Below, piece by piece: positions 5,990-30,410 of a stretch of DNA of 64,000 nucleotides. A model generated the notes under the pieces. That model worked only from the letters and a program-made list of their open reading frames with translations, was not told where the DNA came from and made no database searches. How positions within the stretch are numbered: position 1 is the stretch's first letter; every line of letters begins with the position of its first letter. A program made the position numbers and the translations under genes. The DNA is from Chimonanthus salicifolius (taxonomy: Eukaryota > Streptophyta > Magnoliopsida > Laurales > Calycanthaceae). The DNA is taken from positions 21,879,043-21,943,042 of the forward strand of contig CM023539.1 of NCBI GenBank assembly GCA_013350335.1, given 5' to 3'.

Positions 5990-6019
5990 ATACAACCCTC
6001 TTTTTAAAATTTTCGTCCC
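5990..6019 (-). promoter_or_regulatory. Polypurine tract (plus-strand primer) of element 1
   Basis: Reverse-complemented, it reads as an A/G-rich run (AAAAAGAGGGTTGTAT) directly before the LTR start. The same run precedes the 3' LTRs at 12940, 44868 and 53153. Confidence 0.75.
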
Positions 6020-6050
6020 AAAAATCGAGAGAAGTAGGGTTTCAAACAGA

Positions 6051-6150: not shown

Positions 6151-6154
6151 AGTT

Positions 6155-7600: not shown

Positions 7601-7602
7601 GC

Positions 7603-8115: not shown

Positions 8116-8239
8116 CAGCAGTTCTAATCAAACTACTCATTGTTTTGGGGAATTTCCCTATGTATCATATAATGTCGCTTGTTTGGGGAAATTTCCAAAT
8201 AAACACTCTTTGTATTTCTTTGTTGTTGGGGAAATTTCC

Positions 8240-8430
8240 TAAGTATCAAGTATCATTTCTCAATTTGGGGAAATCCTGATGTTTTCCTGTTCTCGGGGAA
8301 AGCCACCCTAAGTATCAAGTATCATTTCTCAATTTGGGAAATCCTAATGTTTTCCTGTTCTCAGGGAAAGCCACCCTAAGTATCAAGTATCATTTCTCAA
8401 TTTGGGAAATCCTAATGTTTTCTTGTTCCG
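8240..8430 (-). repeat. 67 bp tandem repeat
   Basis: A unit containing GTATCAAGTATCATTTCTC and GGGAAAGCCACCC is present about two and a half times (starts near 8274, 8341 and 8408). Sister copies 2-4 have one equivalent unit at most, which partly explains the longer interior here. Confidence 0.75.
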
Positions 8431-8670
8431 GGGAAATATCTCCTATTTGCTATGTTTGATAAATCCATCTTATAGTGATTGTATTTCCCACGCTATCATT
8501 CCTTTTTGTCAAGTGTTCTCAGATTGAATGTTTCAGTCTAAGTCTAACGAAGTAAATTAATCCGGCCCCCTTGTAGCGGACTCCAAAGAGTCGGTTAGTT
8601 GGGATTCTTATCTGTCAGTAAGACATGATACTTCTTAATCTTATTTCGAAAGATTCATCCATCCCGTTTC

Positions 8671-8682
8671 GTTCTAATACCA
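8671..8682 (-). promoter_or_regulatory. Primer-binding site (initiator tRNA-Met), decayed
   Basis: On the minus strand this is the 12-base site TGGTATTAGAAC. It differs from TGGTATCAGAGC by two transitions and lies two bases from the LTR end, as in the intact sites at 10476, 29478 and 30704. Confidence 0.75.
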
Positions 8683-8684
8683 GC

Positions 8685-9316
8685 TGTAACTCTCCGCCCT
8701 TTTTCACTCGCTTTTCGAAAATCAAAGTCTAATTTTTCTTTTGAATAAAAAGTGAGAGAGAGAGAGGGACGTCACGACGCTAGCTAAATCAGAGTTTCCA
8801 AAGCCCGACCCTTAAGTGGCTAACCATACGTGTGCGTGGACCAAGTCCACTAAAATGGTTCACACGTACTCAAGTTAACTTGCGGAATAATCATATATGT
8901 GGAAATATAATAGAATGATAATTCTATTCCATTTTAGATAGCAAAGTAGTCCAACACTTACCAATAATTATCTTAAGTTAACATATCCAATATTAACCAT
9001 CCAAACCATAGTAAATATATCTACGTTATTACAATCCCGAATACTAGCTACTCAAATACATTATCCATGAGTAACTTAAACAACATATAACTTAATCATC
9101 CAAGCTCCTAAGCTTGGCTCCGATCATATTCCTCGTTCCGTCCATTCCCTGTATCATCAACTAGGGTAGAAGTAGGGCGTTAGAAAACGCTCCCAGTAGG
9201 TACTCCAAATAGGGTTAACACATGGGTTAGTACCAAAAATCCAGATATAATATATCATACCATACTTGTAAAGCATCGTATTCAAAACAATGTATGATAA
9301 TAGAGATCCAATCATA
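8685..9316 (-). mobile_element. 5' LTR fragment of element 1
   Basis: It begins with the LTR terminus TGTAACTCTCCGCCC and runs about 630 bp inward. At 9316-9321 it abuts a plus-strand LTR of the same family, giving a head-to-head junction. Confidence 0.85.
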
Positions 9317-9320: not shown

Positions 9321-10473
9321 TTTGTTCTACCTCATTGATATCATGGAATATGTATGATGGTTTTAATTCATATTTCGATAAGTTATTTTGTATAAATGAT
9401 ATGTTTCAAATATGAGATTTTAAATGCTATGATTTGTATAATTGCATAGCATGTGGACATTTGCATCTCATGCATAGCATGGGAGGGATGATATGTAACC
9501 GGAGATCCACACTCCGTCGAGGCGTCCGTAATACAATCGTGGGGGATACCTTGATGAGGAGTTTTCCATCAAGAGGTAACTGTAGACCACACTCCAACTG
9601 GGCGTCCGTAGACAACTGTTGGGATGCCTTGATGATGAGTTTTCCATCAAGAGGATTCTATGTTTGTTTGATACCCTGATGATGAGCTTTCCATCAAGAG
9701 GATGTTTTGTATAGCCGATGGGTGGGACTCATGGCATATGGCACACATGGCATGGCATTGTATCAGAATGATTATGATCTCTATTATCATGCAATGTTTC
9801 AGATTTTTATCTGTATGACTGGATCTCTATTTTCATATATGATTTTGGATAAGATGTTTTATAACTATGGTATGATTTATTATATCTGGATTTGATATAT
9901 ATTGTATCAGGATTTTTGGTACTAACCCATGTGTTAGCCTTATTTGGAATACCTACTGGGCGCGTTGTCTAACGCCCTACTTCTACCCTAGTTGATGACA
10001 CAGGGAATGAACGGAACAAGGAACGAGGAACGAGATCGGAGCCAAGCTTAGGAGCTTCGATGATTAAGTTATATTTCGTTTAAGTTATTCATGGACTATG
10101 TATTTGAATAGCTAGCATTCGGGATTGTAATAACGTAGTTATATTTGCTATGGTTTGGATGGTTGATTTTGGATATTTAACTTAAGGCAAATATTATTAA
10201 GTGTTGGACTACTTTGCTATCTAAAATGGAATAGAATTGTTATTCTATTATTATTTCTGCATTTATGTTTTAATCCGCATGTTAACTTGAGTACGTGTGA
10301 ACTGTTTTAGTGGACTTGGTCCACGCACACGATGGTTGGCCAGTTAAGGGTCGTGCTTTGTAAGCTCGGACTTAACTCGCGCCGTGACGTCCCGCTCTCG
10401 CACACTCTTCTATTTATAAAAAAAAAAGACTCTGATTTTCGAAAAGCATAGTGAAAAAGGGCGGGGCGTTACA
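9321..10473 (+). mobile_element. 5' LTR of element 2 (3' part only)
   Basis: It starts near the block that precedes repeat c (TTCTACCTC..GATATCATGG) and runs to GGGCGGGGCGTTACA at 10473. Its last 630 bp are an inverted repeat of 8685-9316. Confidence 0.85.
9490..9712 (+). repeat. Block c tandem repeats
   Basis: There are three to four units with CTTGATGA..CATCAAG inverted repeats and CACACTCC..GGGCGTCC boxes. Confidence 0.75.
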
Positions 10474-10475
10474 GT

Positions 10476-10487
10476 TGGTATCAGAGC
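10476..10487 (+). promoter_or_regulatory. Primer-binding site (initiator tRNA-Met)
   Basis: TGGTATCAGAGC starts two bases after the LTR end. It is the exact complement of the last 12 bases of plant initiator tRNA-Met, including CCA. The leader that follows (GAAACGGGAAGG..., to about 10920) is non-coding and shared with element 4. Confidence 0.9.
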
Positions 10488-10923
10488 GAAACGGGAAGGT
10501 TGAATCTTTCGAAGTAAAATGAAGACGGTTTCATGTCTCACTGACAAATAAGAATCCCAACTGACCGACTCTTCGGAGTCCACTACACGAGGGCCGGATT
10601 AATTTACTTCGTTAGACTCAGACTGAAACATTCAATCTGAGAACAACAAGGAATGATAGCAAAGGAAGCACAGTCAAAATAATTGGATTTATCAAACATA
10701 GCAAATTAGGAGATACTTCCCCGATAACCCCAAATTGAGAAATAATACTTGATATTGAGGAAAATGTTCTCCCAAGAACAAAGAAATACAGGGAGTATTT
10801 ATTTGGTAATTTCCCCAAACAAGAGACATTATGTGATACATAGGAAAACTCCCCAAAATAAGAAATAGAAGATGATGATTAGGAAATTCCCTAAAACAAA
10901 GATTAGTTTGATTTGAACTACCG

Positions 10924-11483
10924 TTGTCATTGATATGCTTCTGTTGTGATACAGATATGTCGAACAACATAACGTATATAGAGTTGTGGAACAGAGGTAC
11001 CCCTAGCTGTCCAATAGATCTGGTTTCTTCTTCCGACGATTCCAGTGTGCCAAACTTCATCAATGAAGTTGTAACCAGTCAAGACATGGAAGTAGAATCG
11101 CCCGAGTACAATGTTGGGGTTGCTCCAACCTTTGTACCCGAAGAGGACGAAGAAGATGTCCCAAACTTAGAAGAATCCATAGGGGAGATAGGCTTGCCCG
11201 AGTATACTCCGGCTACTCCGACTTCGAATGAGTTGACAGATTATATGTGTGAATCATGCAATTAATAGGGGTACAACTGTACTTATTGCCCCACCCTATT
11301 GAGGTTATTTGCCCTGCTTGTGGACTTCACGGGCACAGGAAGGAGAGGACTGACTGTCCTTACATTGGGGGACAGGGAATAATACCCTGTCTGACTTGTG
11401 GAGTGTTGGGGCACACGTCGACGACATGCCTTGACAACTTCTTCAATTTTGGTGATGATACAGGGCCTTCTACGGAAGATTAG
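10924..11483 (+). pseudogene. Triple zinc-knuckle ORF, copy 2 (broken)
   Basis: This is a close relative of the intact 187-residue ORF at 31151-31714. Codons 1-113 are open and include the acidic PEEDEEDVPN stretch. Two stops then follow CESCN inside knuckle 1, replacing codons that read K and E in the intact copy. One C missing from a run near 11289 (four Cs instead of five) shifts the frame. After the shift the remaining two knuckles read openly (CGLHGHRKERTDC and CGVLGHTSTTC) to the family stop at 11481-11483. Knuckle 2 keeps its histidine here, unlike the intact copy. Confidence 0.75.
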
Positions 11484-12779
11484 GCTAAGAGATTGTAATA
11501 AAATGTCAAGGAAAGGGGAAATTTTGTAAGGGTTGTGGGTACGTTTTCTTCTTTGAAGAGATTTTCTAACCCTACCCACCCTTGTGATGGAAGTTTGAAG
11601 ATTTTTAATAAAGTATGCAACCTTAAGAGTTCATGAGGACTTTGGCACTGAGATGTATGTGACTAAGTCATTTGATTATATTGAGACGTGGCATGGGTGT
11701 GTCTCTCACGTGATATTGATGATTGAGACCGTGGGAGCCTCGATATGAAATACGGAGACTTGGTCCTGTAGGGTTGCCGTTGAGGAGTGGGTCATTCGCA
11801 TGCTATGCACTGGAGGCCGCTCTCACGGCTATTTTGCACATTTAATGTGTATTGATGCGTAGAGCTAGTTACTATTTTACCCCATGGTGGTGGTGCTAGC
11901 TTCGTTAGACGCGGTCCAACCTCCTTAGGGCTTGACTGAATCACCCTTGGGGTGAAGGGATGCAGGGCGAGGTAGACTTGATCATGTTGGACGTGGGTCT
12001 TCCGCTTAGTAAGTCATGGGCCCTATGTCTTGCTAGGCGTCGGGGTATATTTATGATTTGATATTGTTGCCATAGTCACGTAGTGACTCATTCGAGTGTT
12101 GTTCCTACGGATAGAATATCTCATGGTGGAAGATGTGCCTGGATTAATTATGACCAAGGATGGATTAGTTATTCCCATGTATGGATTAGTTATATTCATA
12201 GATGGTTATTAGCCATGGATGGATGATACTCACTGATAGAGTGGTACTAGGGATGGATGTATATAACCGTGGATGATGATTCCCATGGTGGTTTGGATTG
12301 ATGCTGGTATTGGTATCGTAGAAGTTTTGAACAAAAGTTGTTAGTCACATAGTAACTTATGTGCAAATGAAGATATGCTTACTTTTGGAGGTATACTTAG
12401 TGGAAAAGTTAAGAGTCTATTGAAACCAGAATGGGAAGCTATGGACGACTGCCGAGTTAGACTGATCACCTGACTCTATAGTTAGCCGATGGAGTTCCAG
12501 GAGAGTGCAACTAGAAACCTAGTTAAAATGGAATCAGCGGAAGCCATGAGCATAGGCTCGCATTGGCAGGCCACCTTACTAATTTCAATGAGGGGCAAGG
12601 TCATCACTAACCTCACATAGAGAGTAGACGAATGAACCTATTGAGCAAGTACGTATGGAAAATATCTTGTTAGCAAGTAAAGTGAAATAGAGAGCATTGA
12701 TCTACATAAGGTCTCAAATGGGCACATGAGGAAAAGATATGACATGAGATAGAACAAAGGGGTTACAGGCCGAGTGATT
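11484..12779 (+). other. Non-coding interior of element 2
   Basis: The sequence is homologous to 23860-25180 (reversed) and to 31715-32478 plus 52457-52990. No frame is conserved. ATGGATGG-type short repeats lie near 12140-12260. Confidence 0.6.
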
Positions 12780-12878
12780 CAGTTCGTCAAGGTAGTATGG
12801 GATCGACATGGTAATGAGGAAGCCATTTGGGAACTTGAATCGGAAATGACAACAGCTCACCCTGAGCTATCTATGTAA
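12780..12878 (+). pseudogene. Chromodomain C-terminal tail (32 codons)
   Basis: The frame QFVKVVWDRHGNEEAIWELE and on to a TAA just before the polypurine tract matches the last residues of the autonomous polyprotein at 44709-44807 (QFVKVVWEQHGIQEATWELE). It has no start and no upstream polymerase. It is a relic showing that the non-autonomous element derives at its 3' end from a gag-pol element. It may have been kept because this DNA adjoins the polypurine tract. Confidence 0.75.
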
Positions 12879-12916
12879 TCCGTTTGGAACCCTACTTCGC
12901 TCGATTTTCAGGACGA

Positions 12917-12939
12917 AAATTTTAAAAAGAGGGTTGTAT
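12917..12939 (+). promoter_or_regulatory. Polypurine tract of element 2
   Basis: An A/G-rich run (AAAAAGAGGGTTGTAT) directly precedes the LTR start TGTAACACCCC at 12940. Confidence 0.8.
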
Positions 12940-13814
12940 TGTAACACCCCAGATTTCCAAGCTATGGATATATATGGAAATTGTCCATTTAATTTATGAA
13001 TTAATGGATATGGACCTTAGATGGGTAAGGTGTTGGGTCAATTGCCCAATTAATACCCAACGGATGGTGGACATGGTTCAATTGAATTAAATGGGTGAGA
13101 TGTATTTAATTGGGTCAAAATTGGTAATTGCGTCAAAATGTAACGCCCCGCCCTTTTTCACTCGTTTCTTCCTGTAAATTCAGAGTCTATTTGTTTTTTA
13201 TAACAAAGTAGAGTGATAGAGTGCGGGACGTCACGACGAAAGGTAAGTCCGAACTTCCAAAGTCCGACCCTTAACTGGCTAACCCTATGTGTGCATGGAA
13301 CAAGTCCACGAAAATGGTTCACGCATAGCAATATCAACTTGCGGAATAAGTATCATAATCTGTGGAATCAAAACATCAATTTGCGGAATCATAATAGAAC
13401 CAAGTTCTATTCCATTCAAATAGCAAACTACGTCAAGTTCTTAATCATCATTCAAATACCATAGTTATCAAAATTAACATCCATCCATCTAAGTTATTAC
13501 ATTCCGAAATCTAAATACTCAAATACAAGTTCATGAGTAACTTTATTCAAAACATATAAAATAGGTCTTCCAAGCTCCTATGCCTGGTCCGTCTTACGTT
13601 CGTCATTCCCCTGATTTCCTCTATCATCAACTAGGGTAGAAGTAGGGCGTTAGAACAATGCGCCTAGTAGGTATTCCAGTTACGGCTAACACATGGTTAG
13701 TACAAAACATATATTATAACATAGTATATCAAACCAGGTAAAATCCATGCCATGTAATGATGACAAATATGTAATGAGTGCCACCCATCACATGTACATA
13801 AATGTACCCACCAC

Positions 13815-13935
13815 ATAGGTCTTCCGGATGCCCTAGCAGAGTGTGGACCCTCCGGAAACTTCTTGATGGAAATCACATCAAGGTACCGCACATAGGTTTT
13901 TCGTACGCCCTGACGGAGTGTGACCCCTCCGGTTA
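13815..13935 (-). repeat. Block c repeats in S1 (two units)
   Basis: Two units carry boxes related to GGACGCCCCGACGGAGTG. A CTTGATGG..CATCAAG inverted repeat lies between them. Confidence 0.65.
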
Positions 13936-14321
13936 CCAATCCTCCACATCATGCCATGCATGAGATGCCAACGAAACACACACTATTTTATAACATAAAG
14001 ATAGCACTTAAAATCACCTTTTGAAACATAATCAACACATGCTATATATACAATTAAACATAGCATTTGAAATTCAATAATAAAGCATATCCTTTGAAAC
14101 ATAAATTTCATCAAACATAAGATAAAACAAAGTACATGAACCATGGTTTCAAAGAGGTGGAATCCTACCAAAGACTGCTAATGTGTGATTGCGTCTTTCG
14201 TCCGGTAACCGCTCACGATTGTAAACGCCTTGTGACGTCCCGTTACCTTATAATATAACAATTAATCGTAACCAAGTCTCACTTGATTTTCAAAGTTCCA
14301 AGTCCATAAATAAAACCCCAT

Positions 14322-15855
14322 GGGGTTCGGCCATACACCATGGCTGAACCCATGGTCCATTAATTCAATTAATTACCATAATGCCATTGTACATAACCAT
14401 AGACACTTTCTTTGCTTACATTCCAAACTAATCCATACACATAGTCCAATAACTAATTCATGGAGTTCGGCCATACACCATGGCCGAACCCTATGTCCAA
14501 TATTTCCATTATTTACAAAATTGCCATTGTTTCCCTCATTCATTTAAATCTACCATAACTAGACCCTATAAACTTTCCTTAACCAAAACATTTCCATCAA
14601 ATACTCCTCATGGGGTTCGGACATACATCATGGCCGAACCCATGATTCTCCACTTTGGCATGTAATTACAACTTTGTCGTTGGCCTAATTATTTCCAACC
14701 TTTTGTTCATTAATACATCAATCTAAACTCATAAAATAGGTTCATAATTCGGTCCATAAATCGGCCATTAACCATGACTTAAAATGCCATATGATCCCTT
14801 AGTTTGGTCCATGGGGTTCGGCCATACACCTTGGCCAAACCCTATGGTGTACAACTTTCCAATTATAGGAACTTCCATAATTAACAAGTCCACAATTAAA
14901 AGGTCCATATTTAAAGAGTTTCTTAATTAATAAACCACCCTTCCATAATTAGAAGGTTTCCATAATTACCATCCAAAATTAGAAGCTTTCTAATTTAGCC
15001 AACTCCTTCCAAAAATAGAAACTTCCAAAATTTAGCAACCTTCTTTCCATATCGGATGCTTTCTAATTTTAGCAACCTTCTTTCCATAATTGGAAGCTTT
15101 CCATAATTAAACTTCACTTTCCTTAATTGGAAGGTTTCCTTAATTAACTCCCTTCCATAATTAAATGCTTCCAAATTAAAAGGTTTCCAAAATTAAACCC
15201 TAGTGGGGTTCGGCCATGCACCATGGCCAAACCTCACCCATAGAAGCAATCCATTATCATTCATTAAACAAGAACCCATATCCTTCTATTTAATCAATCA
15301 ATAATCATCTAATAAAATTCCTTGATAAATTGGATCCATAAGGAAACTCATGGGGTTCGGCCATACATCATGGCCGAACCCATGATCCCCCCAACTTCCA
15401 TTTAAACTCTTTTAGAACAATATAATTCTTCATGGTTTTTATCATTCAAATTTCCCATAACTCTTACCAACACAACTCCATTTAATCCCTTCAAAGATCA
15501 TATATCTTTAACATCAATTTCCCAATTACACTTAACCAATACTCTTCCATGGGGTTCGGCCATGCACTATGGCCGACCCTATGGCTCTTTCTTTCCATTT
15601 AATTAAACAATGATCATCCAATTAATCAAACTACCTTATTGATATCTTTCCATGGGGGTTTGCAATCCTTTACAATTAATAAATCAATCCACATGATTCA
15701 AAGTCTTAAGAACCCCAAATCCATAATTGTATTTGATGGGGTTCTGCCATACATCATGGCCGAACCTCATCCCTTCTTTTCTATTAAAAATTATCAAGAT
15801 GATCCCCCATTCTTCTTCCATGGGGTTCGGCCAAACACTATGGCCGAACCCTATG
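14322..15855 (-). repeat. Hairpin array b in S1
   Basis: Nine b hairpins lie at about 14322, 14463, 14611, 14815, 15205, 15352, 15550, 15738 and 15821. The spacers include TTCCATAATTA-rich repeats between 14860 and 15200. This is the longest b array in the window. Confidence 0.85.
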
Positions 15856-16867
15856 GTTATTTTATTTCAAAACAACTTATCAATTAGATAATAACCTTTT
15901 CCGATTCCGGTTCTTCTAATCTTTCTCCTTTCTTCTTAATTTTTCTCCAACCAAGAACACCTTCTTGTTGCTGTCTTTTCTTCTCTTGCTCTTTGCCATG
16001 TGAGAGGACGAGAGATTGAGAGAGATAGAGAGAGAAAATTCGACAACGAGGGTGTAAAACCTTGTACCCCTCTATGTCTCCCATTTTATGCAATTCCAAT
16101 TGATCCAAAATTAGAAGATGCTAAGATACACCATGCCCCATTGTCGTGTACTCCTTGTCTTATTGGAATGGCTGACCTTCCCTCTTTGGAAGTGTCACAC
16201 ACGGACATGTAATGTCTATTTAGTTAGACATCTTCCTTATTTAATTTTTTTAGACCAAATACATACCCTTTTAAAGTATCTTATGCGCATAATGTAGATA
16301 TGAAATATCTCTATACACGGCCAAAGAAATCCTCATTTGATTTTTAAACATCTCCTTGGATATTCAAATCCAATGTTCGGCCATGTCCAAATCTTTTAAT
16401 TAATTCTTGGACATAATACATTACTAAGATAATTCAACCCATTTAAATTTTTATAAAACCAATTCCACAAGCAATTGGGTCCTAATTGGGTCATGGCCCA
16501 ATTCTTTATCCATTTAAGATCAAATCTAAAATTCACAATTAAAAATGGATAAATTTCATAAAAATAATAAATTGAAAATCCGAGGTGTTACACAAAATGC
16601 CCAATTGGGACACAATGGGTCGTGGTTGACTTGGTTGACCACCAAGTGAGTTCAAGCTTAATTAAATTGGGCTGAGTTAAGTTGGAATTGAATCAAGTGA
16701 TTGAATTGATTTTTAAGTGAGTTAAAAGAGTTGAATTAAAGAAGTGAGTTGAGTTAAAAAGTTGAGTTGATTGGAAGCTAGTGGGACACTAATCTCAAGT
16801 GAGTGGAGTGGGAAGGTGGAGAGGTGAATCCCACCAAGACCAAGTCAAGGTTACACGTTGGAGGTGT

Positions 16868-17295
16868 GGGAGTTTCATCTCATGGGATGAAACTCCAAAG
16901 GCTCATTGATGAAAGGGTTTTGGGGGTTACACAATTCAAACCCATAGCACATGCTGGAGTCATGGGAGCGTCATTTCATGGATGAAACCCCCAAATGGGT
17001 CATTAATGGGAGGGGACGGTTTTGTTGTTACACAAGGTAACCAAGGGGCAAACGGTTGAGAGTTTCATCTCATAGATGAAACCCCCAAAGGAATCACTAA
17101 TGGAGGTGGACGGTTTTGTGGTCTAAAGTCAAGACTACACCTTGAAGACATGGGAGTTTTCATCTCATGGATGAAACCCCCAAATGAACCATTAATGGGA
17201 GGAGAAAGGTTGGTGGAGGTTACACAAAGGCATACCCATAGCACCGTTAGAGACATGGGAGTTTCACCTCAAGGATGAAACCCCCAATGTAAGTA
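16868..17295 (+). repeat. Hairpin array a in the 3' LTR of element 2
   Basis: About five hairpins of the GAGTTTCATC..GATGAAAC type lie near 16870, 16968, 17060, 17155 and 17260. Spacing is about 90-110 bp. Confidence 0.75.
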
Positions 17296-17812
17296 TCAGT
17301 GAGAAGGTAATGAGTTATGGGAGTTATAAAAGGGCTTTACAAAAAGGCACCACCCTTGGCCGATCACCCTCATTTGAACAAAACAAGTTTTGGTCTTCAT
17401 CTCACTATCTCCCTTTCTCAAGGCCGATCACACTCTTGGACAAAGGAGAAAAGACTTAAGAGTTTTCTATCTCAAGCCTCTCTCTCTCTCAAACCCACAC
17501 TCTTGGCCGAACCCTCTTCTTGAAGTTTCATCTCAAGACCTCTCAAGTTCCACACACTCGGCCAAGGATCAAGGAGGAAGAAAAGGCTAAGGAAGAGGAA
17601 GATCAAAGGAACAAGAAGGATCGAAGAAAACCAGAGGAGTCGCGGAACTAGTAAGCACTTAATAGAATTTTGATTAAGTAAGATGGTCAAGGAAAGTGGT
17701 CCGGCCATTTCATGGCTGAACCCTAGTCTTATTATGGCAAAGGACTTCTTGCATGACCAAACCCTAAGGTTAATATGCATGGACCACCAAGGACAAAAAG
17801 GGGTGAATGAGG

Positions 17813-18746
17813 TTCGGCCATGATGTAAGGCCGAACCCCATCAAAGAATATAAATCTTGGGATATGATTTAAAAACGAATTAATGAACCATAGGGTTCGA
17901 CCATGTTGTATGGCCGAACCCCATAGGAGTTTGTTGGTAATTGTAAATGGTTTTTGAAGGATGACAACCATGGAAGGACATTAGTTAATTTTAATGGATT
18001 TGAAACATGAAAATCATAGATGTATGTTTATGATTTGTAAAAGGTTTAAAATGGAAGTTATGTTGATGGACTTTGGGATTGTAAAGGATGACCTAAAGTT
18101 ATGATTAAATTTCCCATAAAGGGACTTGTCTAAGGGATTAAGGATTGTAAATAATTAAAGGAGAAGATGGGAAAATGAGACATCATGGGTTCGGCCATGG
18201 TGTATGGCCGAACCCCATGAACCATTTTTAATGGGCCATTTGGTATTATATCTTGATTTGATGAACCATTTATGGAACTAGAGTTATGGATCAAATATGG
18301 AGCCAAGTGTGGGTAACTTAAGTATGTGATTACCATGTATGGAAAGAATGGCCAAAAAGGGAAATTAAAGGACCATAAGGTTCGGCCATGGTGTATGGCC
18401 GAACCCCTGGATCATGTGTTTGGATTAAGGAACTATGTGTGATCATTTTTGAGACATAAGCCTTACGTAAATAAGCAAGGTAAATAGCCATGGATGGAGC
18501 GATGGCAAGGATGTAAATAAGTGAAAATAATGGACCATGGGTTTGGCCATGGTGTATGGCCGAACCCCATGGGGAATGTTTGGTGGACTTAGGATTTTAT
18601 GTATGTTAGATGATGAACTTATGTATGATTAGATTAATGAACTAAAGGTGATATGATCATGAACTAATTTAAAAAATCAAGGTATTCAAAAGAGGGACCA
18701 AACTCAAATGTGTGAGGTTCGGCCATGGTGTATGGCCGAACCCCAC
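17813..18746 (+). repeat. Hairpin array b in the 3' LTR of element 2
   Basis: Six b hairpins lie at about 17813, 17893, 18188, 18379, 18540 and 18716. A seventh, more degenerate inverted pair is at 17701-17724. Confidence 0.85.
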
Positions 18747-19074
18747 TAAGGTTGGTTTATGGATTTATTTTTAGATCGGAAATCAAATGGGACATGGGAT
18801 TGATTGTTTGGCATGCTATAAGGTAACGGGACTTCACAAGGGGTGTACGATCGTGAACGGTTTCCGGACGAAAGTGTAAGGACACTTTAGTGGTCTTCGG
18901 TAGGATTCTACCTCTTTGAAACCATGGTTATGTAATATGGTTTAACTTCTTATTTTGATGGTTTATGTTGTAAAAATGTTATGCTTCAAATATGAGATTT
19001 TAAATGCTATGATTTGTGTAATTGCATAGCATGTGGACATTTGCATCTCATGCATGGCATGGGAGGGATGATAT

Positions 19075-19285
19075 GTAACCGGAGATCTACACTTCGTCGG
19101 GGCGTCCCTAACACAATCGTGGGGGATACCTTGATGAGGAGTTTTCCATCAAGAGGTAACCGGTGACCACACTCCGTCGGGGCGTCCATAAGACAACTGT
19201 GGGGATACCTTGATGATGAGTTTTCCATCAAGAGGCTACTATGTTTGTTTGATACCTTGATGAGGAGCTTTCCATCAGGAGGATC
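19075..19285 (+). repeat. Block c in the 3' LTR of element 2
   Basis: Three units carry TTGATGAGGAG..CATCAAGAGG and CTCCGTCGGGGCGTCC-type boxes. Confidence 0.75.
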
Positions 19286-20038
19286 TTTTGTATGGCTGAT
19301 GGGTGGGACTCATGGCATGGCATTGCATCAGCATGATTATGATCTCTATTATCATGCATGTTTTGGACTTTTGTCTGTATGATTGGAATCTCTATTATCA
19401 TACATGATTTTGGATACGATGTTTTGTACGTATGGTATAATTTATTATATCTGGATTTGATATATATTGTATCTGAATTTTTGGTACTAACCCATGTATT
19501 AGCCTTACTTAGAATACCTACTGGGCGCGTTGTCTAACGCCCCACTTCTACCCTCGTTGATGATACAGGGAATGAATGGAATGACGAACGTGATCGGAGT
19601 CAAGCTTAGGAGCTTGGATGATTAAGTTATATTTTGTTTAAGTTATTCATGTATTTGAATAGCTAGCATTCGAGATTGTAATAACGTAGATATATTTGCT
19701 ATGGTTTGGATGGTTGATTTTGGATATTTAACTTAAGGCAAATATTATTAAGTGTTGGACTACTTTGCTATCTAAAATGGAATAGGATTGTTATCCTATT
19801 GTAATTCCGCATTTATATTCCACATTGATGAATTATTCCGCATGTTTTACTTGTACGTGTGAACCATTTTAGTGGGCTTGGTCCACGCACTCGTATGGTT
19901 GGCAAGTTAAGGGTCGGGCTTTGGAAGCTCGGACTTAACTAGCGTCGTGGCGTCCCGCTCTCTTTCACTTTTCTATTCAAGAAAAAAAAAAAACTCTGAT
20001 CTTCGGAAAGTGAGTGAAAAAGGGTGGGACGTTACAGT

Positions 20039-20089
20039 TGGTATCAGAGCCAGGTTTCGATCTTGGGACCTGTGGGTTATGGGCCCACC
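20039..20089 (-). other. Copy of the 3' two thirds of initiator tRNA-Met joined to an LTR end
   Basis: The plus strand continues past the normal 12-base primer site. From memory of the plant initiator tRNA-Met sequence, 50 of 51 bases match its reverse complement (mismatch at 20063). The match runs from the CCA end through the T arm, variable loop and whole anticodon arm (TGGGTTATGGGCCCACC contains the complement of anticodon CAT), ending at about tRNA residue 26. Ten unrelated bases follow, then the next LTR. In elements 1, 3 and 4 the sequence beyond the site is an unrelated leader. The CCA complement points to mature tRNA rather than a tRNA gene. It is not a functional tRNA gene because the 5' third is missing. 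Confidence 0.75.
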
Positions 20090-20854
20090 GCCTGCAAACT
20101 GTAACGCCTCGCCCTTTTTCACTATGATTTCCGAAAATCAGAGTGTATTTCTTTTTTTTTTATATAAATAGAAGAGTGAGTGAGAGCGGGACATCAGGAC
20201 GCGAGCTAAGTTCGAGCTTCCAAAGCCCGACCCTTAACTGGCCAACCATTCGTGTGCGTGGAATAAGTCCACTAAAACGGTTCACATGTACTCAAGTTAA
20301 CATGCGGAATAAAACGTAAATGCGGAAATAATAATAGAATAACAATTCTATTCCATTTTAGATAGCAAAGTAGTCCAACACTTAATAATATTTGCTTTAA
20401 GTTAAATATCCAAAATCAACCATCCAAACCATAGCAAATATAACTGCATTATTACAATCCCGAATGCTAGCTATTCAAATACATAGTCCATGAATAACTT
20501 AAACAAAATATAACTTAATCATCCAAGCTCCTAAGCTTGGCACCGATCTCGTTCCTCGTACCGTTCATTCCCTGTGTCATCAACTAGGGTAGAAGTAGGG
20601 CGTTAGACAACGAGCCCAGTAGGTATTCCAAGTAAGGCTAACACATAGGTTACTCCCAAAAATCCAGATACAATATATATCAAATCCAGATATAATAAAT
20701 CATACCATACTTATAAAACATCGTATCCAAAATAATGTATGATAATAGAGATCTAATCATACAAATAAAAACTAGAAACATTGCATGATAATAGAGATCA
20801 TAATCATGCTGATGCAATGCCATGCCATGAGTCCCACCCATCAGCCATACAAAG

Positions 20855-21075
20855 CATCCTCTTGATGGAAAGCTCCTCATCAAGGTATCAAACAAACATA
20901 GTATCCTCTTGATGGAAAACTCATCATCAAGGTATCCCCACAGTTTTCTTACGGACGCCCCGTCGGAGTGTGGTCTCCGATTACCTCTTAATGGAAAACT
21001 CTTCATCAAGGTATCCCCCACGATTGTATTACGGACGCCCCGACGAAGTGTGGATCTCCGGTTAGATATCATCCC
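20855..21075 (-). repeat. Block c in the 3' LTR of element 3
   Basis: Three to four units carry CTTGATGG..CATCAAGG inverted repeats and ACGCCCCGxCGGAGTG boxes. Confidence 0.75.
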
Positions 21076-21394
21076 TCCCATGTCATGCATGAGATGCAAA
21101 TGTCCACATGCTATACAATTATACAAATCATAGCATTTAAAATCTCATATTTGAAAAATAACATTTTTACAACATAAACCATCAAAATAAGAAGTTAAAC
21201 CATATTACATAACTATGGTTTCAAAGAGATAGAATCCTACCAAAGACCACTAAAGTGTCCTTGCGCTTTCTTCCAGAAACCGTTCACGATCGTACACCCC
21301 TTGTGAAGTCCCGTTACCTTATAGCATGCCAAACAATCAATCTCATGTCCCATTTGATTTCCGATCTAAACATAAATCCATAAACCAACCTTTG

Positions 21395-22340
21395 TGGGGT
21401 TCGGCCATACACCATGGCCGAACCTAACCCATTTGAGTTTGGTCCCTCTTTTGAATCCCTTGATCTTTTAAATTATTTCATGATCATATCACCTTTAATT
21501 CATTAATCTAATCATACATAAGTTCATCATCTAACATACATAAAATCCTAAGTCCACCAAACATTCCCCATGGGGTTCGGCCATACACCATGGCCGAACT
21601 CATGGTCCATTATTTTCACTTATTTACATCCTTGCCATCCCTTTATCCATGGCTATTTACCTTGCTTATTTACATAAGGCTTATGTCCCGAAAATGATCA
21701 CACATAGTTCCTTAATCCAAACACATGATCCAGGGGGTTCGGCCATACACCATGGCCGAACCTTATGGTCCTTTAATTTCCCTTTTTGGCCATTCTTTCC
21801 GTACATGGTAATCACATACTTAAGTTACACACACTTGGGTCCATATTTGATCCATAAATCTAGTTTCATAAATGGTTCATCAAATCAAGATATAATACCA
21901 AATGGCCCATTAAAAATGGTTCATGGGGTTTGGCCATACACCATGGCCGAACCCATGATGTCTTATTTTCCCATCTTCTCCTTTAATTATTTACAATCCT
22001 TAATCCCTAAGACAAGTCCCTCTATGGAAAATTTAATCATAACTTTGGGTCATCCTTTACAATCCCAAAGTCCATCAGCATAACTTCCATTTTAAACCTT
22101 TTACAAATCGTAAACATACATCTATGATTTTCATGTTTCAAATCCATTAGAATTAACTAATGTCCTTCCATGGTTTTCATCCTTCAAAAACCATTTACAA
22201 TTACCAACAAACTCCCATGCGGTTTGGCCATACAACATGGCCGAACCCTATGGTTCATTAATTCCTTTTGAAATCATATACCAAGATCTATATTCTTTGA
22301 TGGGGTTTGGCCATACATCATGGCCGAACCTCATCCACCC
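21395..22340 (-). repeat. Hairpin array b in the 3' LTR of element 3
   Basis: Six b hairpins lie at about 21396, 21571, 21736, 21926, 22221 and 22301. Several show G-to-A changes on one stem side (GGTTTGGCCAT). Confidence 0.85.
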
Positions 22341-22849
22341 CTTTTTGTCCTTGGTGGTCCATGCATATTAACCTTAGGGTTTGGCCATGCAAGAGGTCCT
22401 TTGCCATAATAAGACTAGTGTTCGGCCATGAAATGGCCGGACCACTTTCCTTGACCATCTTACTTAATCAAAATTCTATTAAGTACTTACCGATTCCGCG
22501 ACTCGTCCGGTTTTCTTCCCTCCTTCTTGTTCCTTTGATCTTCCTCTTCCTTAGCCTTTTCTTCCTCCTTGATCCTGGCCGAGTGTGTGAACTTGAGAGG
22601 TCTTGAGATGAAACTTCAAGAAGAGGGTTCGGCCAAGAGTGTGGGTTTGAGAGAGAGAGAGGCTCGAGATAGAAAACTCTTAAGTCTTTTCTTCTTTGTC
22701 CAAGAGTGTGATCGGCCTTGAGAGAGGGAGAGAGTGAGATGAAGACCAAAACTTGTTTTGTTCAAATGAGGGTGATCGGCCAAGGGTGGTACCTTTTTGT
22801 ATAGCCCTTTTGTAACTCCCATAACTCATTACCTTCTCATTGATACTTA

Positions 22850-23290
22850 CATTGGGGGTTTCATCCTTGAGGTGAAACTCCCATGTCTCCAACGGTGTTA
22901 TGGGTATGCCTTTGTGTAACCTCCACCAACCTTTCTCCTCCCTTTAAGGGTTCATTTGGGGGTTTCATCCATGAGATGAAAACTCCCATGTCTTCAAGTT
23001 GTAGTCTTGACTTTAGTCCACAAAACCGTCCACCTCCATTAGTGATTCCTTTGGGGGTTTCATCTATGAGATGAAACTCTCAACCGTTTGCCCCTTGGTT
23101 ACCTTGTGTAACAACAAAACTGTCCCCTCCCATTAATGACCCATTTGGGGGTTTCATCCATGAGATGAAGCTCCCATGACTACAACGTGTGCTATGGGTT
23201 TGAATTGTGTAACCCCCAAAACCCTTTGATCTCCTCATCAATGAGCCTTTGGGGTTTCATCCCATAAGATGAAACTCCCACACCTCCAAC
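22850..23290 (-). repeat. Hairpin array a in the 3' LTR of element 3
   Basis: Five hairpins of the GGGGTTTCATC..GATGAAACTCCC type lie near 22855, 22961, 23053, 23145 and 23251. Confidence 0.75.
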
Positions 23291-23697
23291 ATGTAACCTT
23301 GACTTGGTCTTGGTGGGATGCACCTCTCCACCATCCCACTCCACTCACTTGAGATTAATGTCCCACTAGCTTCCAATCAACTCAACTTTTTAACTCAACT
23401 CACTTATTTAATTCAACTCTTTTAACTCATTTAAAAATCAATTCAATCACTTGATTCCATTCCAACTTAACTCAGTCCAATTTAATTAAGCTTGAACTCA
23501 CTTGGTGGTCAACCAAGTCAACCACGACCCATTGGGTCCCAATTGGCCATTTTGACCCAATTACCAATTTTGACCCAATTAAATACGTCTCACCCAACAC
23601 CTTACCCATCTAAGGTCCATATCCATTAATTCATAAATTAAATGGACAATTTCCATATATATATATATCCATAGCTTGAAAATCCGGGGTGTTACAA

Positions 23698-23723
23698 TAC
23701 AACCCTCTTTTTAAAATTTTCGT
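23698..23723 (-). promoter_or_regulatory. Polypurine tract of element 3
   Basis: Reverse-complemented, it is an A/G-rich run directly before the LTR start, as in the sister copies. Confidence 0.75.
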
Positions 23724-23756
23724 CCCGAAAATTGAGTGAATAGGGTTCCAAACGAA

Positions 23757-23855
23757 TTACATAGATAGCTCAGGGTGAGCTGTTGTCATTTCCGATTCAA
23801 GTTCCCAAATGGCTTCCTCATTACCTTGTCGATCCCATACTACCTTGACAATCTG
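23757..23855 (-). pseudogene. Chromodomain C-terminal tail, element 3
   Basis: The minus strand reads 32 codons ending in a stop just before the polypurine tract, with the HGNEEAIWELESEM core as in elements 2 and 4. It is a relic without upstream polymerase. The region 23860-25180 between it and the ORF is non-coding interior shared with the sister elements. Confidence 0.7.
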
Positions 23856-25181
23856 AATCGTTCGGTTTCGTAACCCCTTTGTTTTATCTCATGTCATATC
23901 TTTTTCTCGTGTGCCCATTTGTGACCTTATGTAGATCAGTGCTCTCTGTTTCACTTTACTTGCTAACAAGATGTTTTCCATACGTACTTGCTCAATAGGT
24001 TCATTCATCTACTCTCTGTGTCAGGTTAGTGATGACCTTGCCACTCATTGAAATTAGTAAGGTGGCCTGCCAATGCGAGCTTATGCTCAAGGCTTCCGCT
24101 AATTCCATTTTAACTAGGTTTCTAATTGCACTCTCCTGGAACTCCATTGACTAACTATAGAGTCAGGTGATCAGTCTAACTCGACAGTCGCCCATAGCTT
24201 TCCATTCGGGTTTCACAAGACTCTTAACTTTTCCACTAAGTATACCTCCAAAAGTAAGCATATCTTCATTTGCACATAATTTACTATGTGACTAACACCT
24301 TTTGTTCAAAACTTCTACGATATCGATATGGGCATTAATCCAAACCACCATGGGAATCATCATTCACGGTTATATACATCCATCCCTAGTATCACTCTAT
24401 CAGTGAGTATCATCTATCCATGGTTAATAACCATCCATGAATATAACCCCCCGTCTGGATATAATCCATTCATGGGTATAACTAATCCATCCTTGGTCAT
24501 AATTAATACAGGCACATCTTCCACCGTGAGATATTCTATCCGTAGGAACAACACTCGAATGAGTCACTACGTGACTGTGGCAACAATATCAAATCATAAA
24601 TATACCCTGACCCCTAACAAGACTTAGGGCCCATGACTTACTAAGCGGAAGATCCACGTCCAACGTGATCAAGTCTACTTCGCCCTGTGTCCCTTCACCC
24701 CAAGGGTGATTCAGTCAAGCTCTAAGGAGGTCGGACCGCGTCTAACGAAGCTAGCACCACCCCCATGCGGTAAAATAGTAACTAGCTCTACGCATCAATA
24801 CACATTAAATGTGCAAAATAGCCTGTCAGAGCGCCCTCCAATGTATAGCATGCGAAGGACCCACTCCTCAACGGCAACCCTACGGGACCAAGTCTCTGTA
24901 TTACCAAGTCTCTATATTTCATATCGAGGTTCCCACGGTCTCAATCATCAATATCACGTGAGAGACGCGCCATACCACGTCTCAATAAAATCAAGTGACC
25001 TCGTCACATGCATCTCAGTGTCAAAGTCCTCATAAACTCTTAAGTTTGCGTACTTTATTCAAAATCATTCATACTTCCATCACAATACAAGGGTTGGTAG
25101 GGTTAGAACAACCCTTCGAAACGTACCCACAACCCTTACAAAATCTCCCCTTTCCCCAACATTCTCTTACCACTCCTTAAC

Positions 25182-25546
25182 CTAACCTTCCGTAGAAAAC
25201 CCTGCATCATCATAAAAATTGAAGAAGTTGTCAGGGCATGTCGTCGACAGTGTGCCCCAACACAAGTCAGACAGGGTATTATTCCCGGTCCCCCAATGTA
25301 AGGACAGTTAATCCTCTCATTCACGTGCCCGTGAAGTCCACAAATAGGGCAAATAACCTCAATAGGGTGGGGGCAATTAGTACAATTGTGCCCCTCCTGA
25401 TTGCATAATTCGCACATATAATATGTCAACTCATCCGAAGTCAAAGTAGCCGGAGTATACTCGGGCGAGCCTATCTCCCCTACGGATTCTTCTAAGTTTG
25501 GGACATCTTCCTCGTCCTCTTCGGGTACAAAGGTTGGAGCAACCCC
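25182..25546 (-). pseudogene. Zinc-knuckle ORF copy 3, C-terminal part
   Basis: This is the part of the 187-residue protein from just before the acidic PEEDEEDVPN stretch to the family stop at 25182-25184. It lies downstream of the insertion of solo LTR S2. Knuckle 1 (CELCNQEGHNCTNC) and knuckle 2 (CPICGLHGHVNERINC) are complete, with histidine in both. A small indel after CLTC shifts the frame inside knuckle 3. The N-terminal part resumes at 28850-29008 beyond the insert. Confidence 0.75.
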
Positions 25547-25984
25547 TGTAACACCTCGGATTTTCAAGTTATTAATATATATGAAAATTACCCATTTAAT
25601 TTGTGAATTATTAGATATGAACCTTATATGGGTAAAGGTGTTGGGTCATTGCCCAATTAAGGCCCAACGGATTGTGGAAATGGTTTCAATAAAATTAAAT
25701 AGGGCTTAATTAAAATGGTAATGCAATATCTATAAATAAAGATTTTAGGAATGGAATGTAGATTACATGGCCGTGTGTGTGGGAATTGCACATGCATTGA
25801 GGATGTGCATAAGATAATTTAAAAGGATGTTTATTTCCTTGGTTAAGAGTGAAATTAGAAGATATCTAAAATTAGATAGGATGTTTGTCGTGTGTGGGAT
25901 TTGCACATCTATGAGGATGCGCATAAGATCATTTAAAAGGGGTCCTTTCCTTGTTGAGAGCAACACTAAGGCACTTGCTAAATT

Positions 25985-26165
25985 GCAAGGGGCGCATGGC
26001 ACCTTCTAAGTTAGGACCGATTGGAAATTATAAAAGAAAGGCACAAGAGGGGCGCATGGCATTAAGGCAATTGTTAAATGGAAGGGGCGCAAGGCACCTT
26101 CTAAATATAGGACCAATTGGAAGTTTATAAAAGAGAGGCAACATAAGGGGCGCACGACACATCCA
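25985..26165 (+). repeat. GGGGCGCA box repeats in S2
   Basis: The motif GGGGCGCATGGCACC and its variants recur near 25990, 26048, 26085 and 26147, within repeated text (CCTTCTAA..TAGGACC.ATTGGAA). This module replaces hairpin array a. A single related GGGGCGCACGGCATACAC occurs in E5. Confidence 0.65.
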
Positions 26166-26349
26166 AATCAGCAAGGTCTTGAAATTGAGAGCTCTAGCAA
26201 GAAGGTGTTCACGGCATACACAAAGGAAGAGAGGGCAGCCAACAAGTGTGCAAGGAAGAGAAGGATTGGGAGAGCAAGAACAAGTGAAGGAAAACCAGAG
26301 GAGACGCGGAACGTTAGTATTTTGATAAATTTGTTTGAAATAAGGAACC

Positions 26350-27560
26350 ATAGGGTTCGGCCATGGTGTATGGCCGAACCCCATGGAAGAGAATTGGGAG
26401 ATGAATATAGTAATTTTAATGGAAAGGATGGACCATAGGGTTCGGCCATGCATGGAGTGACATGGTTTAATTTATAGGTTTTGAGGGATGAAAACCATGT
26501 AATGAAATAAAGATGTTAAAGGGTTTTAATGGATGTTTTTAACCTTAGATCATGGGTTCGGCCATGGAGTATGGCCGAACCCCATAAATAATTATGGAAT
26601 TATGTTCATGTATTTAGATAATGGAAAATGATGGGAAAGGTCACTTATGATTTATTTTTAAATGGATGGAAGGTTTGATGGTTTTAGATGCAATTAGATC
26701 ATGGAGACCATGGAAGGAATATCAATGATTTTTTTTAAAGAGAAGACCATGAACCATAGTGTTCGGCCATGGTGTATGGCCGAACCCCATGAAACATGGT
26801 TATTAATTTAGAAAGTTTTTAATGATGGATTTTTTAATAAAAAAGGAAGGAACATTGATTTATGGATTCAAGGATGGTACTTGTTATAATTGGAAAGTTA
26901 GACATCATAGGATTCGGCCATGGTGTTAGGCCGAACCCCATGAATCAATGTTATGGATCGGTTTTGGACATAAACATAAGATAATGGCAAAAATGTAAAT
27001 ATGGTCTAAAATAAAAGACCATGGGCTCAGCCATGGTGTATGGCCGAACCACATGAGAAATATTTGGTGATTTTGTTATGGAAGTTTGGAGGATAAAAAT
27101 CACGGACCATGGTTTCAGCCATGGTGTATGGCCGAACCCCATGGAAAAATATAGATGGACTTAAATTGGTGATTGATCGAATGGAGATCGTGGAGATGAT
27201 GGCAAAGTTACAAATACATGCTAAAATGGAGGATCATGGGTTTGGCCATGATGTATGGCCGAACCCCATGAGGTCTTTTATGGACTTAGGTTATTATTAG
27301 CATGTTTTAAAGAATGAAATGGAAAGTCATAGATAGAACAACTGGCAGAAATGTAAATAGGTGAAAATAATGGACATAGGGTTCGGCCATGGTGTATGGC
27401 CGAACCCCTATGAACTATTTGTATGGATTATTTTGGAACATAAGCCTTATGAAAATAAGCAAGGTAAATGGCTATGGATATGTATAATGGCAAGGTTGTA
27501 AATAAGTAGAATTAATGGACCATGGGTTCGGCCATGGTGTATGGCCGAACCCCAAGGGGA
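26350..27560 (+). repeat. Hairpin array b in S2
   Basis: About nine b hairpins are present (near 26353, 26554, 26760, 26913, 27026, 27112, 27237, 27376 and 27525), plus half-hairpins at 26438. Confidence 0.85.
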
Positions 27561-27889
27561 AGGTTTATGCACTTGGACATTATTGGAAATCAAATGGAAC
27601 ATGGTTTTAACTGATTGTTATATTATAAGGTAACGGGACCTCACAAGGTGTGCACGATCGTGAGCGGTCACCGGACGAAAGCGCAAGGACACGTTAGTGG
27701 TCTTTGGTACGATTCCACCTCTTTGAAATCATGAGTTTATGTACAATGTTTTTATCTTATTTTGATGAAATTATGTTGTAAAAGTTATGTTTCAAATGTG
27801 AGGTTTTAATGCTATGTTTACAACATAAAATAGCATGTGTTTTCATTGGCATCTCATGCATGGCATGGGGTGAAGGATATGTAACCGGA

Positions 27890-28165
27890 GGGGCCACACT
27901 CTGTCGGGGTGTCCGAAAAACCTATGTGGGGTACCTTGATGTGCATTGTCCATCAAGAAGGAACCGGAGGGGCCACACTCCGTCGGGGCGTCCGAAAACC
28001 TATGTAGGATACCTTGATGTGCATTTTCATCAAGAAGAAACTGAAGGGTCCACACTCCGTCAAGGCGTCCGAAAAACCTATGTGGGATACCTTGATGTGC
28101 ATTTCTATCGAGAAGAAACCGGAAGGGGCCACACTCCGTCGGGGCGTTCGAAAGACCTATGTGGG
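27890..28165 (+). repeat. Block c tandem repeats in S2
   Basis: Four units of 77-79 bp each carry GGGGCGTCCGAAAAACC, CTTGATGTG and CATCAAG elements. Because the period is close to 78 (26 codons), long but meaningless open frames run through it on both strands. Confidence 0.85.
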
Positions 28166-28849
28166 GGTACTTATATGTACTTGTTATGGGTGGGACTCAT
28201 TGCATTTGACATCATGACATGGCATGGTTTATATGGTTTTTATGGCATGGTTTATATGGTTTTTGACTTTATGATATTATTATATATGTTCTGTACTAAC
28301 CATGTGTTAGCCCTAACTGGAATACCTACTGGGCGCGTTGTTCTAACGCCCTACTTCTACCCTAGTGGATGATGTAGGAAACGAGGGCAAACATGAACGT
28401 GACAAGGGCCAAGCATAGGAGCTTGGGATGTTTTTAGATTTTATTTTGCTTAAGATATTCATGGACTTGTAATTTGAATATTAATAATGCGGCATGTAAT
28501 AACTTTGATTTTGCTATGGTTTGGATGGTTTTATTTGGATATTTATGTTATGATTAATTTCATTAAGTGACTAAGTACATTGCTATCAAATGGATTGGAC
28601 ATGGGTTCTATTATAATTCCGCAATGATGATTTATTTTGCATGTGTATCGTATTGCTATGTGTGAACCGTTTTCATGGACTTAGTCCATGCACCCATAGG
28701 GTTGGTCAGTTAAGGGTCGGACTTTAGAAGTTCGGACTTAGCTCGCATCGTGACGTCCCGCTCTTGCTCACTCTTTGTTTATAAAAAAAAAAAAAAAGAC
28801 TCTGATTTTCGAATTAAAAGTGAGTGAAAGGGCGGGGCGTTAGAACCCC

Positions 28850-29008
28850 AACATTGTACTCGGGCGATTCTACTTCCATATCCTGACTGGTTACAACTTC
28901 ATTGATGAAGTTTGGCAGGCTGGAATCGTCGGAAGAAGAAACCAGATCTATCGGACAGCTAGAGGTCCTTCTGTCCCACAACTCTGTATACTCTATGTTG
29001 TTCGACAT
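28850..29008 (-). pseudogene. Zinc-knuckle ORF copy 3, N-terminal part
   Basis: The minus strand encodes MSNNIEYTELWDRRTSSCP and the following serine-rich and DMEVESPEYNVG segments. It ends at the ACCCC duplication of S2 and belongs with 25182-25546. The extra 12 N-terminal codons seen in the intact copy are disrupted here. Confidence 0.7.
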
Positions 29009-29477
29009 ATCTTATCACAACAACAGAAGCAAATCAATGACAACCGTAGTTCAAATCAAACAAATCTTTGTTTTGGGGAATTTCCTAATCATCATCTTGT
29101 ATTTCTTGTTTTGGGGAGTTTTCCTATGTATCATATAATGTCTCTTGTTTGGGGAAATTACCAAATAAACACTCTTTGTATTTCTTTGTTCTTGGGGAAC
29201 ATTTTCCTAAATATCAGGTATTATTTCTCAATTTGGGGATATCGGGGAAGTATCTCCTAATTTGCTATGTTTGATAAATCAATTATTTTGACTGTACTTC
29301 CTTTGCTATCATTCCTAGTTGTTCTCAGATTGAATGTTTCAGTCTGACTCTAACGAAGTAAACTAATTAGGCTCCCGTACAGCAGACTCCGAAGTGTCAG
29401 TCAGTTGGGATTCTTATCTGTCAGTGAGACATGAAACCATCTTAATCTTACTTCGAAAGATTTAACCTTCCCTTTTC
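29009..29477 (-). other. Non-coding leader of element 3
   Basis: This is the reversed leader between primer site and ORF, homologous to 10488-10923 and 30716-31150. It carries GGGGAA..TTTCC phrases at intervals. No ORF is shared between copies. Confidence 0.6.
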
Positions 29478-29489
29478 GCTCTGATACCA
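29478..29489 (-). promoter_or_regulatory. Primer-binding site (initiator tRNA-Met), element 3
   Basis: The exact reverse complement of TGGTATCAGAGC lies two bases from the LTR end at 29492. Confidence 0.9.
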
Positions 29490-29491
29490 AC

Positions 29492-30408
29492 TGTAACGCC
29501 CCGCCCCTTTTCACTCGCTTTCCGAAGAGCAGAGTCTATTTTTTTTTCTTGAATAGAAGAGTGAAAGAGAGCGGGACGCCACGACGCGAGCTAAGTCCGA
29601 GTTTCCAAAGCCCGACCCTTAACTGGCCAACCATACGTGTGCATGGACCAAGTCGACTAAAATGGTTCACACGTACTCAAGTAAAACATGCGGAATAATT
29701 CATCAATGCGGAATATAAATGCGGAATTACAATAAGATAACAATCCTATTCCATTTCAGATAGCAAAGTAGTCCAACACTTAATAATACTTGCCTTAAGT
29801 TAAATATCGAAAATCAACCATCCAAACCATAGCAAATATATTACGTTATTACAATCCCGAATGCTAGTTATTCAAATACATGAATAACTTAAACAAAATA
29901 TAACTTAATTATCCAAGCTCCTAAGCTTGACTCCGATCACGTTTATCGTTCCATTCCATTCCTGTGTCATCAACTAGGGTAGAAGTAGGCGTTAGAAAAC
30001 GCACCCAATAGGTATCCCAATTAAGGTTAACACATGGGTTAGTACCAAAAATCCAGATATAATATATATATCAAATCCAAATATAATAAATCATACCATA
30101 CTTATAAAACATCGTATCCAAAATCATGTATGATAATAGAGATCCAATCATACAAATAAAAACCAGAAACATTGCATGATAATAGAGATCATAATCATGC
30201 TGATGCAATGCCATGCCATGAGTCCCACCCATCAGCCATACAAAACATCCTCTTGATGGAAAGCTTCTCATCAAGGTATCAAACAAACATAGTATCCTCT
30301 TGATGGAAAACTCATCATCAAGGTATCCCCACAGTTGTCTTACGGACGCCCCGACGGAGTGTGGTCTCCGGTTACCTCTTGATGGAAAACTCCTCATCAA
30401 GGTAACCC
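29492..30408 (-). mobile_element. 5' LTR fragment of element 3
   Basis: It runs from TGTAACGCCCCGCCC inward through about three block c units (30240-30405) and stops at AAGGTAACCCC. There it abuts the last 291 bp of a plus-strand LTR. Confidence 0.85.
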
Positions 30409-30410
30409 CT

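Follow-up and report, generated by a model that had tools for sequence, protein, structure and literature searches.

A 51-nt copy of the initiator tRNA-Met primer was revealed directly behind an LTR end in a 64,000-nucleotide stretch of Chimonanthus salicifolius DNA (contig CM023539.1; hereafter the window, meaning this whole stretch), where it lies between two LTRs of one family that face each other. This joint is probably explained by read-through of reverse transcription into the primer tRNA, followed by joining of the resulting end to a second cDNA. About 33 events with long copies of the same tRNA were found in the genome, and various sequences follow the copy in them.

A primer tRNA copy between two facing LTRs

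The LTR terminus at 20036 is followed by GT and, directly after it, by 51 bases (20039–20089) of which 50 are those expected for the complement of initiator tRNA-Met with its CCA end. The copy spans residues 76 to 26 and thus extends well past residue 58. The runner-up 51-mer of the window matched the tRNA complement at 27 of 51 positions, and the best 51-mer of one shuffled window at 28 of 51. The initial annotation had noted this match, the PPT and 3' LTR upstream of it, and the different leaders of other elements; all three observations were confirmed. Beyond the 12-nt PBS, 38 of 39 bases at the joint match the tRNA, against 10, 11 and 9 of 39 at three further sites of the window that carry the exact GTTGGTATCAGAGC (PBS at 10476, 30704 and 29489, respectively, the last on the minus strand). 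The leaders of these three relatives diverge after the 12-nt PBS and do not carry the tRNA stretch, and in the relatives examined the 63 bp of the joint were not found as an ordinary leader.

The upstream 3' LTR is interrupted by a nested solo LTR (Table 1). On the other side of the copy a further LTR of this family starts in inverted orientation, and behind it come the PPT and the internal region of a second element. Two 3' LTRs face each other, U5 ends inward, across 63 bp (GT, the 51-nt tRNA copy, GCCTGCA and AAC), around which the sequence is nearly palindromic (93%). This dimer has no outer U3 ends, its outer LTRs beginning at LTR positions 2463 and 2679, and further elements adjoin the truncated ends. 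The copy had initially been described as the end of an unfinished cDNA joined without trimming; that the end was joined without being trimmed back to the LTR terminus is supported, while the partner, an inverted second element, had been missed.

Table 1. Features of the head-to-head dimer and its joint (window coordinates).
Feature	Position	Strand	Description
5' LTR A5	9325..10473	+	LTR positions 2463–3597, no U3 part; pairs with B3 by divergence (cDNA X)
Left-arm internal region	10474..12939	+	Ordinary PBS/leader at 10474; PPT about 12924–12933
3' LTR A3	12940..20036	+	Nested solo LTR 13139–16592 (TSD CAAAA); pairs with B5 by divergence (cDNA Y)
GT	20037..20038	+	In ordinary copies, the two bases separating LTR end from PBS
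Primer tRNA-iMet copy, 51 nt	20039..20089	+	Residues 76 to 26, 50/51; first 12 nt are the ordinary PBS
GCCTGCA, filler at joint	20090..20096	.	No in-register tRNA match
AAC, complement of GT+T	20097..20099	-	Presumed end of second cDNA: LTR + GT + one base opposite tRNA A76
3' LTR B3 of second element	20100..23696	-	Inverted, uninterrupted, 3597 bp
PPT and right-arm internal region	23697..29491	-	Internal 23706–25546 and 28844–29491; nested LTR 25547–28843; ordinary PBS 29489
5' LTR B5	29492..30409	-	LTR positions 3597–2679

It should be mentioned that a more distant relative in inverted orientation, truncated in each of its LTRs, occupies 2422–9316 of the window, between a 3' LTR fragment and A5. 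The 5' LTRs of close relatives begin inside the LTR, at positions 2463, 2679, 2936, 3310, 2266 and 2267 (window 9325, 30409, 9316 and 30410; flank positions -19528 and -12070); in contrast, A3, B3 and the LTR at -15750 have all or almost all of their length. LTR position 3590 is connected to 2266, and 3592 to 2267, at two head-to-tail joints. Possibly, the internally starting 5' LTRs belong to cDNAs that ended at the RNA 5' end.

Pairing of the LTRs and origin of the dimer

Comparison of the four LTRs of the dimer over about 900 sites gave divergences of 0.073 for A5–B3 and 0.068 for A3–B5, and of 0.091–0.100 for the remaining four pairs. Of the informative sites, 20 favoured this grouping, and 3 and 0 the two others; the same grouping was obtained in all 2000 resamplings. 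Because the LTRs of one cDNA are born identical, A5 and B3 likely belong to one element (X), and A3 and B5 to another (Y). The pairing indicates that X and Y were cDNAs of the same age made from slightly different templates, the age being conditional on this pairing. Since the LTRs do not now stand in this arrangement, the centre of the dimer apparently underwent a later inversion, for which recombination of one arm with the other is the presumed cause; the pairing may instead be explained by gene conversion or by an assembly error in the inverted repeats. The end of cDNA Y abuts the U5 end of an inverted second element of the same age, and the joint is therefore one between two cDNAs and not between cDNA and chromosome.

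The pairing also bears on a snap-back origin, in which the plus strand would have read the tRNA, folded back via the acceptor stem and copied its own LTR, the resulting hairpin giving a palindrome. Such an origin fits the near-palindromic arms around the tRNA copy and the self-complementarity of tRNA copies, but the arms would have been identical at birth and the four LTRs about equidistant, whereas A5 pairs with B3 and A3 with B5. Snap-back would, moreover, repeat the CCA part, which the second end does not contain either here or at the other clear joint of this kind (L002/L003). Even allowing that gene conversion between the arms could blur the divergence test, we consider it improbable.

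The AAC that precedes the inverted LTR fits an end composed of LTR, GT and T; an unprocessed U5 end would have this composition if, in line with retroviral RNase H work, the base opposite the terminal A of the tRNA were retained. An AAC end fitting the same structure was revealed at L002/L003, where it is joined to a complete 75-nt tRNA copy. These two loci, which are collinear for 10.4 kb at 96.9% identity, represent a single event; of their second LTR no more than about 80 bp is left, followed by other sequence.

We propose the following order of events for joining of a read-through end to a second cDNA. The minus strand would keep its tRNA primer at the U5 end during reverse transcription, and plus-strand strong-stop synthesis, normally halted before residue 58, would have run on to the position opposite residue 26, leaving cDNA Y with an end composed of LTR, GT and 51 nt of tRNA copy. 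This end would then have been joined, via a filler of about 7 bp, to the normal U5 end (LTR, GT and T) of cDNA X. The product would be a head-to-head dimer of cDNAs of the same family and age, whose centre was inverted later by recombination between the arms. The reach of the copy to residue 26 supports the earlier proposal that the plus strand passed from the LTR into the attached tRNA beyond residue 58. The order of the steps, end joining as opposed to template switching and the later inversion are what we infer from the sequences, homologies, TSDs and LTR divergences observed.

Alternatively, a reverse transcriptase stalled in the tRNA could have changed template, continuing synthesis from the 3' end of a different plus strand. 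Switching at such ends does seem to occur, as two other loci (L007 and L004, see below) changed template inside homology between tRNA and U3. At the window joint, however, no homology was recognised and about 7 bp of filler is present, which looks more like end joining; we regard this intermolecular switch as possible but rather unlikely.

Distribution of long tRNA copies in the genome

The first 30 nt of the mature-tRNA complement, used as the query with up to three mismatches (which sets the detection limit for copy ends at residue 47), matched 49 places in the genome; a reversed control pattern matched none. Of these places, 48 were read: seven were gene-like and 41 began with the CCA complement. 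In each of the 41 aligned loci the complement of the mature tRNA is 30 nt long or longer; it starts with TGG in 40 cases and with TTG in one. Grouped by common downstream sequence, they represent about 33 events with LTR ends of 21 clusters, the LTR being identified at many single loci by its short end signature alone. LTR ends followed by long tRNA complement, for which a genome search had been advised, are thus recurrent. The exact sequence of LTR end plus PBS was found at 5,574 places genome-wide, among them six of the 41 loci; long read-through accordingly accompanies about one in a thousand such ends, both numbers being lower bounds.

These data also bear on the idea that a nuclear tRNA gene, a pseudogene or a tRNA-derived SINE lies beside the LTR by chance. 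Of seven gene-like stretches from this genome that were submitted to ARAGORN, five were called as a tRNA-Met (CAT) gene and two were truncated tRNA-like sequences; one gene-like match of the census was left out of this check. The copy has the same sequence as the initiator genes; nevertheless, the five tRNA-Met genes have no CCA, while in the window the CCA complement stands directly after LTR and GT, at the position of the PBS. Together with the TGG start of 40 of 41 loci and the empty control, this makes chance adjacency next to impossible.

The sequences downstream of the copy are varied. Protein-coding sequence of an element follows it in seven of the 33 events, in all of them in sense, although antisense cases could be missed since only the two longest open segments per locus were viewed. 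Pfam matches were obtained for three of ten pieces submitted (L035, RVT_2; L046, SH3_Tf2-1; L065, Integrase_H2C2); L050 and L064 were assigned by mutual similarity and by their position ahead of a PPT and LTR, and L058 and L044 are presumably coding, as judged from sequence motifs only. An inverted U3 follows in two events, an LTR end head to head in three (the window, L002/L003 and, with reservations, L055), a TRIM-like unit in one (L060), and directly oriented LTR sequence belonging to the same family in three (L005, L006/L043 and L019). In three further events (L036/L042, L039/L048/L049 and L061/L062) the copy is followed by stretches common to dispersed copies; the downstream sequence of the other 14 was unclassified. 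Such varied fates point to plus-strand synthesis that passed residue 58 and ended in template switching or end joining.

Dispersed copies L048/L049/L039 and L061/L062 have in common about 50 nt of tRNA complement together with the sequence that follows, and the captured tRNA stretches seem to be inherited there as leaders. One could therefore ask whether the complement in the window is likewise an inherited leader, i.e., an extended PBS, and not a fresh read-through: the common stretches in these two groups and in L036/L042 indicate that inheritance can occur. Ordinary leaders of the window family diverge after 12 nt, and the stretch at the joint has a 3' LTR on one side and, where an internal region would be expected, an inverted LTR on the other. 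Judged from the copies in the window and those returned by the genome searches, we find this origin very improbable for the window, even more so than snap-back.

Ends of the copies and residue 58

In the 33 events the copies end between residue 47, the limit of the search, and residue 1, which was reached in three cases. Eight copies end at residues 24–28. This clustering has a p value of 0.02 if the site is named in advance and of 0.42 for the best five-residue window anywhere, and in two of the eight cases homology between the anticodon arm and U3 can explain the position. Because of the scan value, a general stop at residue 26 cannot be regarded as established; its initial interpretation as a modification footprint, and the clustering of junctions expected there, are weak.

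Opposite residue 58, C in place of T was found in eight of 33 copies, as compared with 11 of 402 at other T sites (Fisher, p = 2e-5). Without the ambiguous L063, for which an indel alignment is possible, seven copies remain (p = 1e-4); if C is counted once per LTR-end cluster, the number is five of 33 (p = 0.004). These values apply to a comparison with T sites only, picked after the table was seen, and several C and G sites of the copies also reach 7–8 mismatches, as cytosine decay would give. All five tRNA-Met genes have A58, and the substitution is suggestive of misincorporation at methylated A58. The eight copies come from five clusters of LTR ends, in each of which TGG follows the LTR without a spacer (presumably as in Copia), so that shared ancestry is possible.

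Paired T-stem changes were observed in the copies as well, at residues 50/64 in L004, L060 and L065 and at 52/62 in L061 and L064, suggesting, as far as sequence can tell, variant primer tRNAs.

Integrated derivatives

Two deletion derivatives were examined with their flanks. Both consist of an LTR, a tRNA copy (43 nt in L050/L073 and 44 nt in L064/L074), the end of pol, a PPT and an LTR; they are flanked by the TSDs GTGTG and CTTTG, and their LTR pairs are 94.0% and 95.2% identical, respectively. This structure is the one expected if the plus strand was carried over not to the PBS but to a position further inside the minus strand, and an over-extended plus strand that made such a transfer would yield a deletion derivative with a TSD. 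The 5' LTR in L073 (the L050 locus), flanked by GTGTG, does not have about 50 bp of U3 that the 3' LTR has.

In L007 and L004 the order is LTR, GT, tRNA copy and inverted U3 (89 and 114 bp, respectively), so that both termini are U3 ends; their TSDs are CACAC and TGAAA. The switch point lies in both inside homology between the tRNA anticodon arm and U3. Here the over-extended plus strand would have switched onto U3, giving an element with two U3 ends and a TSD. For L051/L059/L075, with a complete tRNA copy, no LTR pair or TSD was recognised by eye in 3.2 kb.

At L055/L077 a 40-nt tRNA copy ending at residue 37 stands opposite an LTR-like end in inverted orientation, which carries 18 nt of tRNA complement. 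We considered this a joint of two strong-stop ends and set it aside, since a second inverted end there has the same 18 nt and CAAC. The end facing the copy may be an ordinary PBS and leader, which brings the number of clear U5–U5 joints to two. The two inverted LTR-like ends (L077 positions 2146 and 1823, minus strand) have near-identical 18-nt PBSs, then CAAC; the 18-nt copies within the locus differ by one to two bases, hinting at a family whose ordinary PBS would be 18 nt long, not 12.

In L005 (about 1551–1650), 37 nt of tRNA copy are followed by a repeat of about 10 nt of it and then by the last 40 bp of the LTR; repeat and LTR piece restore a normal U5 end.

We give about even credence to the wider proposal that new non-autonomous LTR elements, U3–U3 elements and head-to-head cDNA dimers arise repeatedly in a plant genome from failure to stop at residue 58, C being inserted across from the modified base in some families. 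The genome would then keep a readable trace of how the primer tRNA was modified and of plus-strand transfers that went astray.

Significance and comparison with known systems

The final structure of internally deleted, non-autonomous LTR elements says little about their origin. Where tRNA sequence is present at the joint of the deletion, one step can be recognised: the plus strand overran its stop and landed in a wrong place. The findings suggest a recurrent copying error able to create new, shortened elements. As fossil ends of reverse transcription, the joints offer a sequence-only way of asking whether tRNA modifications steer plus-strand transfer in plants, as reported for HIV, and C opposite residue 58 is a prediction that can be counted in other genomes.

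The TRIM-like unit L060/L076, 485 bp long, consists of an LTR, a tRNA copy, a PPT-like stretch and an LTR, and is flanked by TTAAG and CTAAG. In contrast to TRIMs, the tRNA copy makes up about half of its short internal region, which suggests how the unit originated.

Retroviral LTR–LTR junctions and aberrant integrations can retain tRNA or PBS sequence at the joint or end of the cDNA. The structures described here differ in the U5–U5 head-to-head joint of two cDNAs and in their long or complete tRNA copies.

The Helenus elements are likewise non-autonomous LTR elements with tRNA-like sequence; according to the excerpt of their description, this sequence is located inside the LTR and was reported as not complementary to the PBS (PMC10886601), unlike the copies found here. 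Among titles and opening parts of abstracts of open-licence PMC articles, no description of long primer-tRNA copies at chromosomal LTR ends was found.

The closest parallel comes from HIV, as outlined in excerpts of a review (PMC13191261). There, m1A58 normally stops plus-strand strong-stop synthesis; without tRNA modification, synthesis proceeds to the tRNA 5' end, with a minor product ending at residue 37. The HIV-1 read-through products (P1, P3–P5) pass residue 58 as the copies described here do, and end further in, e.g., at residue 37 or where the tRNA itself terminates at its 5' side; P3–P5 are minor products, and only P2–P4 are active (PMC13191261). The chemistry of read-through is, on the evidence of these excerpts, already known. 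Unlike the HIV-1 products, the copies reported here reside in chromosomes, have several fates, and come from a plant-like genome with tRNA-iMet as primer. The read-through step is known from HIV work, and its recurrent chromosomal outcome looks new.
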